A stretch of 64,000 bases of DNA from Myxococcaceae bacterium. Its GTDB lineage: Bacteria; Myxococcota; Myxococcia; Myxococcales; Myxococcaceae. A program made the position numbers and the translations under genes. Below, piece after piece: positions 53,439 to 63,689 of the stretch (position 1 is its first letter; the number at the start of each line of letters is the position of its first letter). Where the stretch lies: positions 1 through 64,000 of the forward strand of contig JAEUJQ010000035.1 of assembly GCA_016793095.1 (NCBI GenBank). Reading direction: 5' to 3'. The notes below the pieces were generated by a model. It was not told where the DNA came from and searched no databases. It saw only the letters and a program-made list of their open reading frames with translations.

Positions 53439-56663
<3,225 letters not shown>

Positions 56664-56739: not shown

Positions 56740-59340
56740 ATGCCGGCCTCGCGCGTGCACTTCACCGGACCCGTCGTCTGCCGCAGCCCGGGCCTGCCGT
56801 TCGCGACCGTGGAGCGCTTCTCGAACGTGCCCGACGCCCCCGACGCGCTGGCCGCGCGCCTCGACGCCGACCGCCGGCGGCTCTGGAGCACGCTGGACGA
56901 TCCCCACGTGCTCGACGCGTTCGCGACGATGAACCCGCAGACGCTCACCACGTTGCTCGCGACGAAGGACGCTGGGCGGCACCTCGGCAAGCGCACCTCG
57001 GACGTGCGGCGCGACGAGCGCACGCTCTTCAAGTTCCTCACCCGCTTCTCGAGCCGCAACGACACGACGGGCGCCGCGGGGTCCACCTGCTGGGGCTCCT
57101 GGACGGGGGGCGCCTTCGCCGCGAAGGTGACGCCGGGCTCGGGCCGGCACGCCCGCCGCGTGGTGCTCGCCTCACCGCGACGCCTGTCGTGGCTGTGGCG
57201 GAGGGTCGTCGAGAAGACGCACCGCCTTCACGGGCGCGTCGAGCTGGCGGGACGGCTCCTCCTCACCGACCAGGGCGTGCTCAACACCGAGTCTGGCGTG
57301 CTGTGGGCGCTCGATGGAGAGGAGCGCGACGCGCTCGCCCACCTGCCGACGACGACGTGGAGCCCGGTGGTGGGCCGGCTCCTCGACCGCGGCGTGCTGA
57401 CGTTGACGGCGACGGGTCCGGGCGATCCCCTCGAGGCGCTGGCGGTGCAGAGCGGCGATGAGGTGGTGAGGGCGCTGCTCGCCTTGCAGCACCAACTGGT
57501 CTCTGCACGCGGGCTCGAAGGCGCGCGGGTGATGGGCGACGCCGAGCGGCTGGTGGGCTCGGCGGCCCCGCTCGCGTCGCTCGACCTCGGCGCGGCGCTC
57601 GACGTGGTGCTGAACGACCTCATCCGCGAGGCGCCCACGGCGCTTCGAGTGCTCAGGTCGCGACGCTTCCGCCCGATGGAGGGCGTGTTCCACGACACCC
57701 TTGGCGCCGGCGATCTGACCGCGCCAGCGCCCATCATCGACGCCCTCGCCCACCTCGACACGCCGGTGCCGCTCTCGGCCCTGACGCACGTCCTGTCCGC
57801 CGAACACGCGCTCAAGCTGCTCCGCGCGGGGGTGCTGCTGCTGGAGGGCGAGGCGCTCGATGGCCCCATCGCGGGGCTCGAGGCGCGCTTCGCCAGTCAG
57901 GTGGGGGCGCTGTGCAGCCAGCCGCTGCCGCCCCCGCATGCACGGCGCGTCGAGCTGCTGCGCGACGCGTGGCCACTGGAGGGCTTCCACCAGCCGACCT
58001 CGGTGGCGACGGGCCTGTTGACCGAGGCGCTGCGAGGCCAGGAACCCCCGGTGCGAACGCTGAAGACCGATCGCACCTTCTTCATCGAAGACACCTCGCG
58101 CGACGTCGCCTTCGAGCTGGGCGAGGCGTTCGCAAGGCGGCTGCGGTCGTCGCTGCACCCGTGGTTCCAGCTGGCTGGCTACATCAGCTGGCTCGACGAG
58201 CGGCGCGACGAGACGCTTCAGCGCGGCCTGCTGCGGCTGGGTGACGCGCTGCCGCTCCCCACCTTCCTCTCCCGGCTCAGGGCGGCGAAGCGCGCGCGCC
58301 GGAGGCAGTGGCTCATCGAGCGTCGCCTGGGGGTCGCCGCGCCGGTCGAGGACTTCTCGTGCTTCTCCTTCGCGCCGCGCGAGGACGGGCGCGTCGAGCT
58401 GTCCCTCGAGCATCTGCCGCAGGCGTACCTCGAGTGGGAGCGCAGCAAGCGGCTCATCACCGAGCTCGACCTCATGGTGTCCGGCCGGGACGGCATGGGG
58501 CGCTGGGTCGTGAACGAGGCCCACGCCATCTCCGCCGAGGGCCTGCCGCTGGTGACGATGTTCCCGCACGCGCAGCCGCCGGAGCAGGTGGACGCGCTGG
58601 TCGGGCGAGGCATCGCCCAGCGGCTCTTCGGCGAGGGCGTGCTGGTGCCCGACGCCTCGGCGCACAGCAAGCAGAGCGAGGCGATCCTCCGGGTGTTGGG
58701 TGACGCCACGATCGCGGTGACGGGCCAGCGGGGGCCGTGGATCCCGCCGTGGATGACGACGGTGCGCGCGGCCGACGTGCTGGTGCGGCGAACCGGGCGC
58801 GGGCTCGAGGTGTTCTGTGACGGGGCGCCCCGCCCGTTCGCGAGCGCCGACTTCTGCTCAGGAGACTTCCGGCTCGTCGGCTACCTGCCCGAGGACATCG
58901 CCGACCTCGCCGCGCACGCGATGGGCGAGACCCAGGGACCGCTCGGCTCGCGCTACTCGCCTGACGTGTGCATGGGTGAGCTGACGCTCGCGCGCGGCAG
59001 CCTCTCCTTCGACGTGAAGCTGCTCGAGCCGCTCGTACGGGCGAAGGGCGAGGCGGCGCTGGTCAGCACCGCGAAGGCGCTCGCGGCGGAGCTCGGGCTG
59101 CCGCGCCAGGTCTACGTGAAGCTCGGCGGCAAGCCGTTCCTGGTGGACTGGGCGAGCCTCTTCAGCCTCGAGGTCTTCGTGTCCGAGCTGCGGGGCGCGA
59201 CCGGCACCCTCCACGTCAGCAAGATGGACCCGGCGCCCGACGAGCTGTGGCTCGAGCTGCCCGAGGGGGTCTTCACCAGCGAGCTGCGCTTCGTGGCGTG
59301 CCTGGACGGGCCCGACTGTCCACTGAAGGACGCGCGGTGA
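56740..59340 (+). CDS. LanB-like lantibiotic dehydratase N-terminal family enzyme
   Basis: 866 residues, cytoplasmic. The first ~120 residues match the Lant_dehydr_N start: VERFSNVPDAP, then LFKFLTRFSSRNDTTGAAG in place of the usual RxSPRxTPxG-like motif, and GSWTGG. The C-terminal ~180 residues fit the family's end (LSFDVKLLEPLVRAKGEAAL, VYVKLGGKPFLVDWASLFSL). The protein has only this domain; the separate elimination domain (Lant_dehydr_C) is absent. Stand-alone members of this group use aminoacyl-tRNA to modify a peptide (glutamylation, or amino-acid addition by PEARLs), so that is the likely chemistry, but the target is unknown. ATG 56740 lies 76 bases from divergent carB. It overlaps the propeller gene by four bases. 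Confidence 0.8.
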   Translation: MPASRVHFTGPVVCRSPGLPFATVERFSNVPDAPDALAARLDADRRRLWSTLDDPHVLDAFATMNPQTLTTLLATKDAGRHLGKRTSDVRRDERTLFKFLTRFSSRNDTTGAAGSTCWGSWTGGAFAAKVTPGSGRHARRVVLASPRRLSWLWRRVVEKTHRLHGRVELAGRLLLTDQGVLNTESGVLWALDGEERDALAHLPTTTWSPVVGRLLDRGVLTLTATGPGDPLEALAVQSGDEVVRALLALQHQLVSARGLEGARVMGDAERLVGSAAPLASLDLGAALDVVLNDLIREAPTALRVLRSRRFRPMEGVFHDTLGAGDLTAPAPIIDALAHLDTPVPLSALTHVLSAEHALKLLRAGVLLLEGEALDGPIAGLEARFASQVGALCSQPLPPPHARRVELLRDAWPLEGFHQPTSVATGLLTEALRGQEPPVRTLKTDRTFFIEDTSRDVAFELGEAFARRLRSSLHPWFQLAGYISWLDERRDETLQRGLLRLGDALPLPTFLSRLRAAKRARRRQWLIERRLGVAAPVEDFSCFSFAPREDGRVELSLEHLPQAYLEWERSKRLITELDLMVSGRDGMGRWVVNEAHAISAEGLPLVTMFPHAQPPEQVDALVGRGIAQRLFGEGVLVPDASAHSKQSEAILRVLGDATIAVTGQRGPWIPPWMTTVRAADVLVRRTGRGLEVFCDGAPRPFASADFCSGDFRLVGYLPEDIADLAAHAMGETQGPLGSRYSPDVCMGELTLARGSLSFDVKLLEPLVRAKGEAALVSTAKALAAELGLPRQVYVKLGGKPFLVDWASLFSLEVFVSELRGATGTLHVSKMDPAPDELWLELPEGVFTSELRFVACLDGPDCPLKDAR

Positions 59341-61106
59341 GCGATGCGCTGATCTCGCTCGCGGCGCTGGAGGTCGCTTGCGACGAGGGCGTGGTCGCCC
59401 ACCTCGCTCGCCTCGACGAGGCGTTGGTGAAGGCGAACGGCGCCGAGCGTGTCGTGCTGGCCCGGGTCCGGGAGGCGCTCGGCATTCACCTCGCGCTGCT
59501 GCAGGAGCGCCCGGACGCGCTGTGGCCGGCGCTCTACGCCCACTGCGCCTTCGTCGACTCACCCCGCGCCCGCGCCTTCGCCACGTCGGCGCCGGGCCCC
59601 GACATGCCCGTCTTCGCGCAGGTGGGACGGTGGCTCGACGAGCGGCGCGCGCTGCACCCCGGAACGCCCTGGCTCAAGGCGCTCACCCCGACGACGCCGT
59701 GGGGCGGAGCGCTGCTCGCCGAGCTGCGGGGCCTGACCGAGCCCCGCGTCGTCTCGATGAATGACGACGAGGTCGTGATCGAATCGAAGGGCCAGCACCT
59801 GGCCTGGCGCTGGACGACCGGCGCCCTGCGGCCGAGCGCCCCTCCGCCGAAGCCTCCAACCCCCGCCCTGCGCCATGACGCAGGGCTCGCGCTCGACCGG
59901 GGCGACGGGCGGATCACCTGGCTCGTCGACGCGGCCTTCCGGGTCTCGAGCGTCACCACCAGCGCAGACGGGCGGGTCATCGCGTGCCTCGCGTCGGAGT
60001 TCGAGGACACCATCGCGTTCGCGTTCGACGTCGCCACCACCCGGCAGCTCGCGTCGATCGAGTGCGACGACTACGCGCGGCTGGGCCTGTCGTCGGACGG
60101 CCGGTGGCTGGCGGTCCGCGCCCGCGACGAGCTCACGCGCGTGGAAGCGCTCGACGGGCAGAGCTCATCAGGCGCGCCCAGCCCCTTCCCGGGGTCGATC
60201 GCCGTCAGCCCGAGGGGGTTGCTCGCGCAGGTCGAGCTCGACGTGGTGCGGGTGCGGCGGCCGCTGCCCATGCCGGTGGGCGCTCTGCCTGGCCGGGGCC
60301 TCGGCACCAGCTTCTCGCGCGACGGCAGCGCCTTGCTGCTCGGGCCATGGGTGCTCGACGGCCTCACCGGGGACTTGAAGGCGCGGCACCCGTACCGCAC
60401 CGGCAACTGGCTCGAGGGAGGGCCCGCGCCCTTCGGCGTGCGCCTGACGCCGGAACGCCTGTGCGCCTCGCTGGGCTTCTCGGTCGAGATCCTCGAGCTC
60501 GCGACGGGGCGTCCGCGGAGACTGCAGGGCGTGACCGCGCTGCATCGGAACCGCGTGGCCTGGTCGGGTGACGGGCGGGTGTTCGGCATCTGCGGGCTCG
60601 GGGACGACACGGTGACGCTCCACCTTCCGAGCGGCGTGCGGACCGTGACGGCGTCGGGGCCGCTCGAGGCGATCGCCCTCGACGAGACGGGCTCCCAGCT
60701 CGCCCTGCTCCACGCCGATGGCACGCTCGAGCTGCAGGCCGGCGGCACCAGGCTGCGCGCGGTTCCCGGCGCGACGGGCGTCTGCTTCCTCGCGAACGAT
60801 CGCGCGCTCGCCGTCGGCGGCCGCTCGTCCACCGCGGTCATCGGGCTCGATGGCGTCGAGCGGTGGAGCAACGCCGAGCCCTTCACCCCCACCGACGTCG
60901 ACGCCTCACGCCTCGAGTGGCAGAGCGGCCTGCGCTCCCCGTCGCTCGCCGAGCGGCTGGTGCTGTCGCCCACCCGGGGCCTGCTCGACGCGTCGCTTGA
61001 CGGCGCTCAGGCGGTCTTCCCGTCGGGCGCACGGGGCTGGGTGCCGTCCCCGGTCTCGTCGCTGCTCGCCTCGGATCGGCTGGCCCTCTGGTGGGAACGA
61101 AGCTGA
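59337..61106 (+). CDS. Beta-propeller partner of the LanB-like enzyme
   Basis: 589 residues, no signal peptide. Residues ~1-175 are helical and unrecognised (ALISLAALEVACDEGVVAHL). Residues ~190-589 form a WD40/TolB-like propeller with repeated blades (SSVTTSADGRVIACLASEFE, ARLGLSSDGRWLAVRARDEL, GTSFSRDGSALLLG, VAWSGDGRVFGICG). It starts at GTG 59337, overlapping the LanB-like stop by four bases, so the two proteins are probably made in fixed ratio and may interact. The propeller could hold the substrate peptide or the enzyme. No peptidase or kinase motif is visible. Confidence 0.7.
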   Translation: MSDALISLAALEVACDEGVVAHLARLDEALVKANGAERVVLARVREALGIHLALLQERPDALWPALYAHCAFVDSPRARAFATSAPGPDMPVFAQVGRWLDERRALHPGTPWLKALTPTTPWGGALLAELRGLTEPRVVSMNDDEVVIESKGQHLAWRWTTGALRPSAPPPKPPTPALRHDAGLALDRGDGRITWLVDAAFRVSSVTTSADGRVIACLASEFEDTIAFAFDVATTRQLASIECDDYARLGLSSDGRWLAVRARDELTRVEALDGQSSSGAPSPFPGSIAVSPRGLLAQVELDVVRVRRPLPMPVGALPGRGLGTSFSRDGSALLLGPWVLDGLTGDLKARHPYRTGNWLEGGPAPFGVRLTPERLCASLGFSVEILELATGRPRRLQGVTALHRNRVAWSGDGRVFGICGLGDDTVTLHLPSGVRTVTASGPLEAIALDETGSQLALLHADGTLELQAGGTRLRAVPGATGVCFLANDRALAVGGRSSTAVIGLDGVERWSNAEPFTPTDVDASRLEWQSGLRSPSLAERLVLSPTRGLLDASLDGAQAVFPSGARGWVPSPVSSLLASDRLALWWERS

Positions 61107-61165
61107 CGGAAAAACCGTTCGACCGTGTTGCGAACAGGCACCGACCCGGCCTAGGGACACGCGCG

Positions 61166-62221
61166 ATGACGACGACGACGATCCAGGTGACCGACCCGAC
61201 AGCGGCTCCGACGTACGCCCCCTCGGCCTTTCAGCGCTTCATCGAGTCGCTGCTCTTCGATCCGCGTGACGCCGTGTTCGTGCGCCTGTGGCTGCGCTCG
61301 ATCCTGCTCGTCGCGCCCGTCATCGGGCTCATGTACTGGCGCTTCTCGTGGTGGCTGGCGCCGGTGGTGTTCGCGTTCCAGGTCGCGTGGATGGCGCCGC
61401 CCGTCATCCTCATGCTGCACAACACGATGCACCGGCCGTTCTTCAAGCAGTGGCGCTTCATGAACCGCGTGGTGCCGTACACCATGAGCGCGCTCTTCGG
61501 CATTCCGACCGGGTACATGGAGCACCACGTCGGCATGCATCACCAGGAGAACAACCTGCGCGCCGATCTGTCCTCGACGATGCGCTACCAGCGCGACAGC
61601 TTCTTGCACTGGCTCATCTACGTCGCGCGCTTCCTGTTCCTGTCCGAGTTCGAGCTGCCCGTGTACCTCGTCAAGCGGGGCCGCGCGCCGTTCGCCATTC
61701 GCGCCATCTCGACCGATCTCGTGCACCTGCTGACGATGCTCGCGCTGTGCTTCGTGCACTGGCAGGCCACGCTCGTGTGCTTCATCATCCCCTACTACAC
61801 GGTGCGGCTCGCGATGATGGCGGGCAACTGGGGTCAGCACGCGTTCCTCGACCCGACCCGTCCAGGTGACAGCTACGTCAACAGCATCACGTGCATCAAT
61901 GCCGCGTACAACGCGCGCTGCTTCAACGACGGGTACCACATCGGCCACCACGTGAAGCAGAACCGCCACTGGACCGAGCTGCCCCAGGACTTCCTCGACA
62001 ACCTCGAGCGGTACCGGAAGGAAGGCTGCGTGGTGTTCCACGGCGTCGACTTCTTCATGGTGTCGGTGCTGCTGTGGACGAAGCAGTACAAGTTCCTGGC
62101 GAAGCGCTTCGTGCGCATGCCCGGCGACACCCGCACCGACGACGAGATCGTCGACTTCCTCAAGTCCCGCACCCGCGCCATCCCGGACGACGTCCCCGAG
62201 GGCGCGGTGATGAATGCCTGA
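61166..62221 (+). CDS. Membrane fatty acid desaturase (third in window)
   Basis: 351 residues with three histidine boxes: HNTMH near residue 89, HHVGMHH near 123 and HIGHH near 265. Hydrophobic helices lie near ~45-85 (SILLVAPVIGLMYW) and ~190-235. It is distinct from the divergent pair near 13 kb, with a different first box and extra residues before box two. It follows the propeller gene after 59 bases and overlaps the barstar-family gene by eight bases. Substrate unknown; a role in modifying an acyl chain attached to a peptide is possible but speculative. Confidence 0.88.
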   Translation: MTTTTIQVTDPTAAPTYAPSAFQRFIESLLFDPRDAVFVRLWLRSILLVAPVIGLMYWRFSWWLAPVVFAFQVAWMAPPVILMLHNTMHRPFFKQWRFMNRVVPYTMSALFGIPTGYMEHHVGMHHQENNLRADLSSTMRYQRDSFLHWLIYVARFLFLSEFELPVYLVKRGRAPFAIRAISTDLVHLLTMLALCFVHWQATLVCFIIPYYTVRLAMMAGNWGQHAFLDPTRPGDSYVNSITCINAAYNARCFNDGYHIGHHVKQNRHWTELPQDFLDNLERYRKEGCVVFHGVDFFMVSVLLWTKQYKFLAKRFVRMPGDTRTDDEIVDFLKSRTRAIPDDVPEGAVMNA

Positions 62222-62603
62222 CGTCTTCGTGCTCGACGGAGCCCGCTTCGACGGCCTCGAGAGCTTCTGGGACGAGCTCGAGCGGGTGCTGCTGCCGGGC
62301 GTGCGCTGGGGGCGGAACCTCGACGCGCTCGACGACGTGCTGCGCGGCGGCTTCGGCACGCCCCCCGAGGGCTTCACGGTGCGCTGGGTCAACGCGGCGC
62401 GCTCGAAGCAGACGCTCGGCCGCGACGAGACGGTGCGGTGGCTCGAAGAGAGGCTCGGGGTCGTGCACCCGTCGAACCGCGCCGAGCTGGCGCGGCGGCT
62501 GGAGCACGCGCGGCATGGCCGGGGCGAGACGCTGTTCGACTCGCTCGTCGATATCCTCAGCGGGCACGAGGCGGAGGGTGTGCGCCTCGAGCTGATCGAC
62601 TGA
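62214..62603 (+). CDS. Barstar-family protein
   Basis: 129 residues. The core pattern of barstar, an inhibitor of barnase-type ribonucleases, is visible: SFWDELERVLLPG, GRNLDALDDVLRGGFG near residue 38 and GFTVRWVNAARS near 60. Barstar proper has about 90 residues, so there is a ~40-residue C-terminal extension (GETLFDSLVDILSGHEAEGV). No barnase-like gene adjoins it, so it may inhibit a distant nuclease or serve another binding role. ATG 62214 overlaps the desaturase end by eight bases. Confidence 0.8.
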   Translation: MPDVFVLDGARFDGLESFWDELERVLLPGVRWGRNLDALDDVLRGGFGTPPEGFTVRWVNAARSKQTLGRDETVRWLEERLGVVHPSNRAELARRLEHARHGRGETLFDSLVDILSGHEAEGVRLELID

Positions 62604-62729: not shown

Positions 62730-63689
62730 TCAGCGCTCGGCGCGCGCAGCCTTGAGCGCGGGCCCCATCTCACGAAGTCGATCGCTCGCCTGCACCAGCG
62801 TCTCGATGAGCGCCTTCTGCACGTGGAGCCGGTTCTCGGCCTCGTCCCACACCGCGCTCTGCGGGCCGTCGATGACGTCGGCGGCCACCTCTTCGCCACG
62901 GTGCGCGGGCAGGCAGTGCAGGAAGAGGGCGTCGCGGTTCGCGAGCTTCATCAACGCGCCATCGACCTGGTAGCCGGCGAGGTCGGCGAGGCGCTTCTTC
63001 GACTCGGCCTCCTGCCCCATCGAGGTCCACACGTCGGTGATGATGACGTCGGCGCCCTTCGCGGCCTCCTTCGGGTCCGCCAGGAGGTGCACGTGGCCCG
63101 GCGAGCGCGCGAGCACGTCGTCGGCGGGGTGGTAGCCCTTCGGCGAGGCGAGCCTGAGCTGGTAGCCGAACAGCTTCGCACCCTCGGTGAAGCTCCGGCC
63201 CATGTTGCTGGCGGTGTCACCGATGAAGGCCAGCGTCTTACCTGCGACGGTCCCCAGGCGCTCCTCGACGGTGAAGAGGTCGGTGAGGATCTGCACCGGG
63301 TGCCCGCCGTCGGTGAGGCCGTTGATGACCGGCGCGTCGCAGTGCTTCGCGAACTCGGCGAGGCGCTCGTCTCCGAAGGTGCGCATCATCACCACGTCGC
63401 AGTAACGACCGGTGACGCGCGCGGTGTCGGCGAGCGGCTCGCCGCGCGACATCTGACTGTTCGTCGCCGAGAGATCGACCGCGTGCCCGCCCAGCTGGGC
63501 CATGGCGGCCTCGAAGGACAGCCGGGTGCGCGTCGACGCCTTCTCGAAGATCATGATCAGCGTGCGGCCAGCCATGGTGTTCACCACCCGGCGCTGCCTG
63601 CGGGCATCCTTGAGGGTGCGCGCGCGGTGGAACAGGGCCTTGTGCTCGTCGCTGGAGAGGTCGAACAGGTTGAGGAAGTCGCGCTTCAT
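62730..63689 (-). CDS. argF: Ornithine carbamoyltransferase
   Basis: Makes citrulline from ornithine and carbamoyl phosphate in arginine synthesis. 319 residues. The carbamoyl-phosphate motif is FEKASTRTRLSFE near residue 50; VMMRTF and GGHPVQILTD follow near 100 and 135, the ornithine-side motif is DVWTSMGQEAE near 223, and the catalytic HCLPAHRGEEV is near 264. Acetylornithine carbamoyltransferase is less likely given DVWTSMGQ. ATG 63689 starts the gene; carB, in the same pathway, lies about 6 kb away on the same strand but with oppositely oriented genes between. Confidence 0.94.
   Translation of the reverse strand: MKRDFLNLFDLSSDEHKALFHRARTLKDARRQRRVVNTMAGRTLIMIFEKASTRTRLSFEAAMAQLGGHAVDLSATNSQMSRGEPLADTARVTGRYCDVVMMRTFGDERLAEFAKHCDAPVINGLTDGGHPVQILTDLFTVEERLGTVAGKTLAFIGDTASNMGRSFTEGAKLFGYQLRLASPKGYHPADDVLARSPGHVHLLADPKEAAKGADVIITDVWTSMGQEAESKKRLADLAGYQVDGALMKLANRDALFLHCLPAHRGEEVAADVIDGPQSAVWDEAENRLHVQKALIETLVQASDRLREMGPALKAARAER

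Follow-up and report, generated by a model that had tools for sequence, protein, structure and literature searches.

A divergent PEARL-like ligase gene in a patchily conserved position between carB and argF in Myxococcaceae

The window analysed here, a 64,000-nt stretch of a Myxococcaceae genome (G000), contains four genes on one strand between carB and argF, which lie on the other strand (Table 1). The first encodes a PEARL-like protein (hereinafter designated the ligase). It is followed by genes encoding a protein with a helical N-terminal domain and a WD40-type beta-propeller (hereinafter designated the propeller), a member of the membrane fatty-acid desaturase family and a barstar-family protein. 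The ligase and propeller genes overlap by 4 bases (GTGA), the propeller and desaturase genes are separated by a 59-base gap, and the desaturase and barstar genes overlap by 8 bases, so that the layout and all coordinates reported in an earlier note on this DNA are confirmed. Each of the four genes is backed by coding bias and has orthologues, and comparing the two closest relatives with each other gives dN/dS values of 0.15 (ligase), 0.39 (propeller), 0.24 (desaturase) and 0.14 (barstar); these orthologues and ratios indicate that the four genes are real and under selection. A scan for sigma-70 promoters and terminators found none.

Table 1 Features of the carB-argF interval and of related loci.
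Feature	Position	Strand	Remarks
carB	53439-56663	-	flanks the four-gene set
PEARL-like ligase gene	56740-59340	+	866 aa, without elimination domain
N-terminal ligase part	56740-57160	+	putative tRNA-3'CCA-binding helix: R91, T95, F99, R102; R106
C-terminal ligase part	58027-59337	+	putative ATP-grasp-like site: D577, E593, H595, R752, Y792, E848, R850
Propeller gene	59337-61106	+	GTG start, 589 aa
Membrane fatty-acid desaturase family gene	61166-62221	+	351 aa, PF00487 1.2e-17
Barstar-family gene	62214-62603	+	129 aa, PF01337 3e-10
argF	62730-63689	-	flanks the four-gene set
Cold-shock protein gene	L031 12649-12840; L032 12652-12843	opposite strand	missing from the window
Tandem PEARL-like operon	L033 3238-12634; L034 5743-16338; L045 8177-18956; L036 743-6551		

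PADLOC, Pfam and NCBIfam scans of the four proteins returned no match for the ligase or the propeller; for the ligase, hmmscan gave no direct Pfam or NCBIfam match, and Lant_dehydr_C (PF14028) is absent from the protein. A BLAST-type search of the family genomes revealed weak C-terminal matches of the ligase to stand-alone proteins, the closest relatives outside the genus matching at 35-39% over the C-terminal 115 residues. Most of these stand-alone relatives match PF04738 above the cut-off, with E values from 6e-8 to 2.5e-31. When the ligase, aligned with its two orthologues, was compared by hhalign with ten stand-alone Lant_dehydr_N relatives, the match reached 99.6% probability (E 4.6e-25), and comparison with four true full LanBs gave 95.4%. 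Two segments match the relatives independently, residues 35-140 (97%, E 8.5e-11) and residues 430-866 (99.4%, E 2e-21), while the middle third (about 140-430) has no similarity to the relatives detectable by hhalign, and no RRE domain is recognisable in the ligase. An RRE (PqqD-like) domain is common in PEARLs but is not known to be required; two relatives of the ligase match PqqD. The AlphaFold2 model of the ligase built from three sequences had a mean pLDDT of 35 and was unusable, and phmmer searches of the ligase, desaturase and barstar proteins against the PDB gave weak matches (E 0.02 or worse) or none.

At the level of sequence homology, these comparisons confirm that the ligase stands alone, is homologous to the LanB glutamylation domain and lacks the elimination domain. 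Its family assignment, a divergent PEARL-like ligase whose position is patchily conserved, is well supported. The earlier note had proposed a Lant_dehydr_N protein; the missing direct Pfam match speaks against this on its face, but the profiles of the PF04738-positive relatives resolve the matter in its favour. Its further suggestion, a stand-alone protein of this type that uses aminoacyl-tRNA, is probably correct.

To compare residues, we used an 18-sequence alignment of 14 stand-alone proteins and four true LanBs, and mapped positions to TglB and BhaB by published motifs and spacing, not by alignment to their sequences. The ligase carries the PEARL signature residues R15, R102, D577, E593-A-H595, R752, Y792 and E848-L-R850. 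Every one of the 14 stand-alone proteins has D577, H595 and R850, none of which occurs in the four LanBs; R752 and an aromatic residue (F or Y) at position 792 also occur in 14 of 14, versus one of four LanBs in each case. Of D577, E593-A-H595 and E848-L-R850, the four LanBs share Glu848 alone. In TglB, Asp542 and Arg803 are PEARL-specific and separate the ATP-using PEARLs from the ATP-free LanBs, the position of Glu801 is shared with LanBs, and a Glu-x-His motif lies in the ATP-grasp-like site (PMC11117183). In BhaBC-Trp, D558, E813 and R815 are PEARL-specific, the residues matching the ATP site are D558, E575, R715, F755, E813 and R815, and Arg34 and a tRNA helix with R197, Q201, Y205 and R208 are further reference positions (PMC11962472). 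Within the corresponding helix of the ligase, R91 and R102 are kept while Gln and Tyr are replaced by T95 and F99; R102 and R106 align with conserved Arg residues of LanBs. The sequence RNDTTGAAGS replaces the KNETxSFFGP motif of the relatives. All predicted ATP-site residues, and with them the key tRNA Arg, are the same in each of three species at 65% identity.

The ligase thus resembles the PEARLs TglB, BhaBC-Ala/-Trp and AmmB in being a stand-alone, LanB-glutamylation-like protein of similar size with an N-terminal Arg, the tRNA-helix Arg residues and the ATP-site Asp, Glu-x-His, Arg, aromatic residue and Glu-x-Arg in equal order and at similar spacing. It differs from them in the changed Gln and Tyr, in its unrecognisable middle region, in having no detectable RRE, and in the lack of a nearby carrier peptide, tailoring enzyme or protease. 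SnaE, the PEARL of the threopeptin NRPS-PKS cluster, is likewise PEARL-like, without a precursor peptide and annotated as a lantibiotic dehydratase, but it lies within that cluster and acts on the cluster product, whereas no NRPS or PKS flanks the window ligase. The split LanB TbtB and the full LanBs NisB and MibB share the glutamylation-domain homology and the tRNA-site Arg residues; by contrast, they have or work with an elimination domain, none of which was found in this genome, and the PEARL Asp, His and C-terminal Arg of the ligase are absent from them. Other Myxococcaceae PEARL-like proteins, tandem and single (for example those of L033, L034, L039 and L042), show the same residue signature but keep KNETxSFFGP or KNDTIGFFGP, include the two proteins matching PqqD and, for the tandem pairs, lie in conserved operons.

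Neither Lant_dehydr_C nor LanC was found in this genome or in any of the seven genus genomes, although the same Lant_dehydr_C search finds matches in relatives that possess the domain. No small ORF that could encode a precursor peptide is conserved among the three ligase loci; the small-ORF matches are weak, and the fragments resemble alternative frames of larger genes. The observation in the earlier note that no LanC or precursor gene lies nearby therefore holds and extends to the elimination domain, and the ligase has neither a known partner or carrier peptide nor a biosynthetic cluster. The missing precursor does not exclude PEARL chemistry, since SnaE works on a non-ribosomal product (PMC11212132).

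A second PEARL-like gene is present in the same genome, in a cluster at 1483-10947 of L105 (contig C60). Its 743-aa product matches PF04738 (3.7e-15), and the gene is clustered with genes for an M28 peptidase, a 460-aa protein of unknown type, a circularly permuted ATP-grasp-like protein and an alpha-oxoamine-synthase-like enzyme, an arrangement also seen in G006 (L035). This locus looks like a more coherent pathway than the gene set at 56740-62603. Further PF04738 matches occur in G001, G003 and G005. In the tandem operons of other Myxococcaceae (Table 1), two PEARL-like genes flank a gene for a Pfam-less protein of about 450-560 aa. A protein-kinase/STAS-type protein is encoded upstream of the operon in L034, with a similar start sequence in L033 and L045, and genes for two small proteins (about 130-150 aa) follow the operon in L034 and L045. 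In another genus (L037, 8624-14324), a full LanB dehydratase adjoins a radical-SAM-like protein with a CNLACNHCG motif in its start sequence.

Among the neighbours of the ligase, the propeller protein has no direct Pfam match; it matches WDR61 at about 1e-5 in a profile hmmsearch of the PDB, and a fold search with an all-beta model of low to modest confidence gave propeller fold matches. The propeller gene is an independent gene outside the ligase system and adjoins the desaturase gene in ligase-free genomes. Desaturase orthologues occur across much of the Myxococcaceae, mostly in other contexts and often directly after rpsF-rpsR-rplI-dnaB (gene names assigned by reading the sequences, not by family search). 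The G006 desaturase gene (L085, 10981-12030) has a TAG in frame close to its 3' end; a sequencing error or an early pseudogene could account for it. Barstar follows the desaturase in five of the seven genus members and stands beside an alpha/beta hydrolase gene in G007, which belongs to another genus; a literature search on barstar and desaturase returned nothing relevant. Elsewhere in G000, an M48 metallopeptidase with a C-terminal barnase-like ribonuclease domain (PF00545 2.9e-21) is encoded at 2878-4077 of L112 (contig C11), and PF00545 matches occur in all seven genus genomes. The orphan barstar of the window could be an inhibitor of this ribonuclease domain.

The earlier note had interpreted the four genes as a possible modification unit. 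Under such a reading, the ligase and desaturase would act on one acyl-peptide while the propeller and barstar assist or protect, as might be suggested by the short gaps and overlaps in the window, by the 8-base desaturase/barstar overlap kept in several genomes, and by a gene order conserved in three genus genomes. A search of 195 genomes of the phylum, however, found full-length ligase orthologues in three of the seven genus genomes and in none outside the genus. In the two orthologous loci (L031 and L032), the order ligase, propeller, desaturase, barstar is kept between carB and argF, but an opposite-strand cold-shock gene splits the ligase from the propeller in both, indicating that only the window has the 4-base overlap and that the ligase forms a separate cistron in the relatives. 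The remaining genomes retain neighbours without the ligase: G001 has carB-propeller-desaturase-argF and lacks barstar as well, G006 carries genes for an aromatic amino acid lyase and an AraC-type regulator at the ligase position, followed by propeller, desaturase and barstar, and G004 has the latter three genes across two contigs. In G002, the desaturase alone of the four was found. No ligase remnants were detected in the G001, G002, G004 and G006 loci. Because several of the genus genomes are fragmented drafts, more weight falls on G001 and G006, whose carB-argF intervals are intact, than on single absences. In a tree built from CarB, desaturase and ArgF, G001 falls with the genomes of L031 and L032 (support 0.999); the identity of CarB and ArgF places G000 closest to G006. 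The ligase-positive genomes are thus not a clade, and there has been more than one loss, or gain, of the ligase, with its neighbours staying in place. With the desaturase and barstar also found in other contexts, a four-gene pathway that includes the ligase is unsupported, and we regard a genuine peptide- or lipid-modifying unit as very improbable.

Two other readings concern the chemistry of the ligase itself. As a split LanB of the LanB-B type, it would glutamylate Ser/Thr side chains with Glu-tRNA and without ATP, and a distantly encoded protein would carry out elimination. The glutamylation-domain homology, including R102 and R106, is consistent with this, but the PEARL-specific Asp, His and Arg argue against it, and the dehydratase reading is further weakened by the seven genus genomes lacking any Lant_dehydr_C or LanC match, leaving it improbable. 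Somewhat less so, yet still unlikely, is a derived member of the fold in which aminoacyl-tRNA ligation has been lost or changed; it might be a regulator that binds tRNA or peptides, for instance, or an ATP-grasp-like ligase that works with another amine. The Q-to-T and Y-to-F changes in the tRNA helix, the altered SFFGP motif, the large middle region unlike that of the relatives, the missing gene cluster and the repeated absence of the gene in close relatives would all fit such a protein; set against them are the invariance of the predicted ATP-site residues and key tRNA Arg at the divergence noted above and the purifying selection on the gene.

We therefore favour, with a probability of roughly two in three, a divergent PEARL-type enzyme that stands alone and acts as a peptide (or small-molecule) aminoacyl-tRNA ligase, the genes for propeller, desaturase and barstar being separate from it. 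For this PEARL-type ligase, the PEARL-specific residues make ATP-dependent carboxylate activation followed by aminoacyl-tRNA attack the best reading, and a PEARL-like mechanism is moderately supported by the sequence comparisons. What the sequences show is homology, residue conservation, gene content and separability of the genes; its catalysis, amino acid and substrate are inferred. By homology, a free carboxylate would be phosphorylated with ATP in the ATP-grasp-like site (Table 1), the 3'-CCA end of a charged tRNA would be bound by R91 and R102, and the amino group of the aminoacyl-tRNA would attack the acyl phosphate; the tRNA would then be hydrolysed off, leaving one amino acid added to the substrate. 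This substrate would not be encoded nearby. It is conceivable, but unlikely, that the ligase works together with the distant locus in this genome that holds the second PEARL-like gene and its ATP-grasp and alpha-oxoamine-synthase neighbours.

The members of the subfamily to which the ligase belongs score below detection, and PEARL surveys based on PF04738 would consequently miss it. At this locus, moreover, the close packing of four genes on one strand in a single genome was no sign of a common function. The persistence of PEARL catalytic residues in proteins without a cluster, carrier peptide or recognisable RRE suggests that PEARL chemistry may extend beyond the carrier-peptide pathways known so far.
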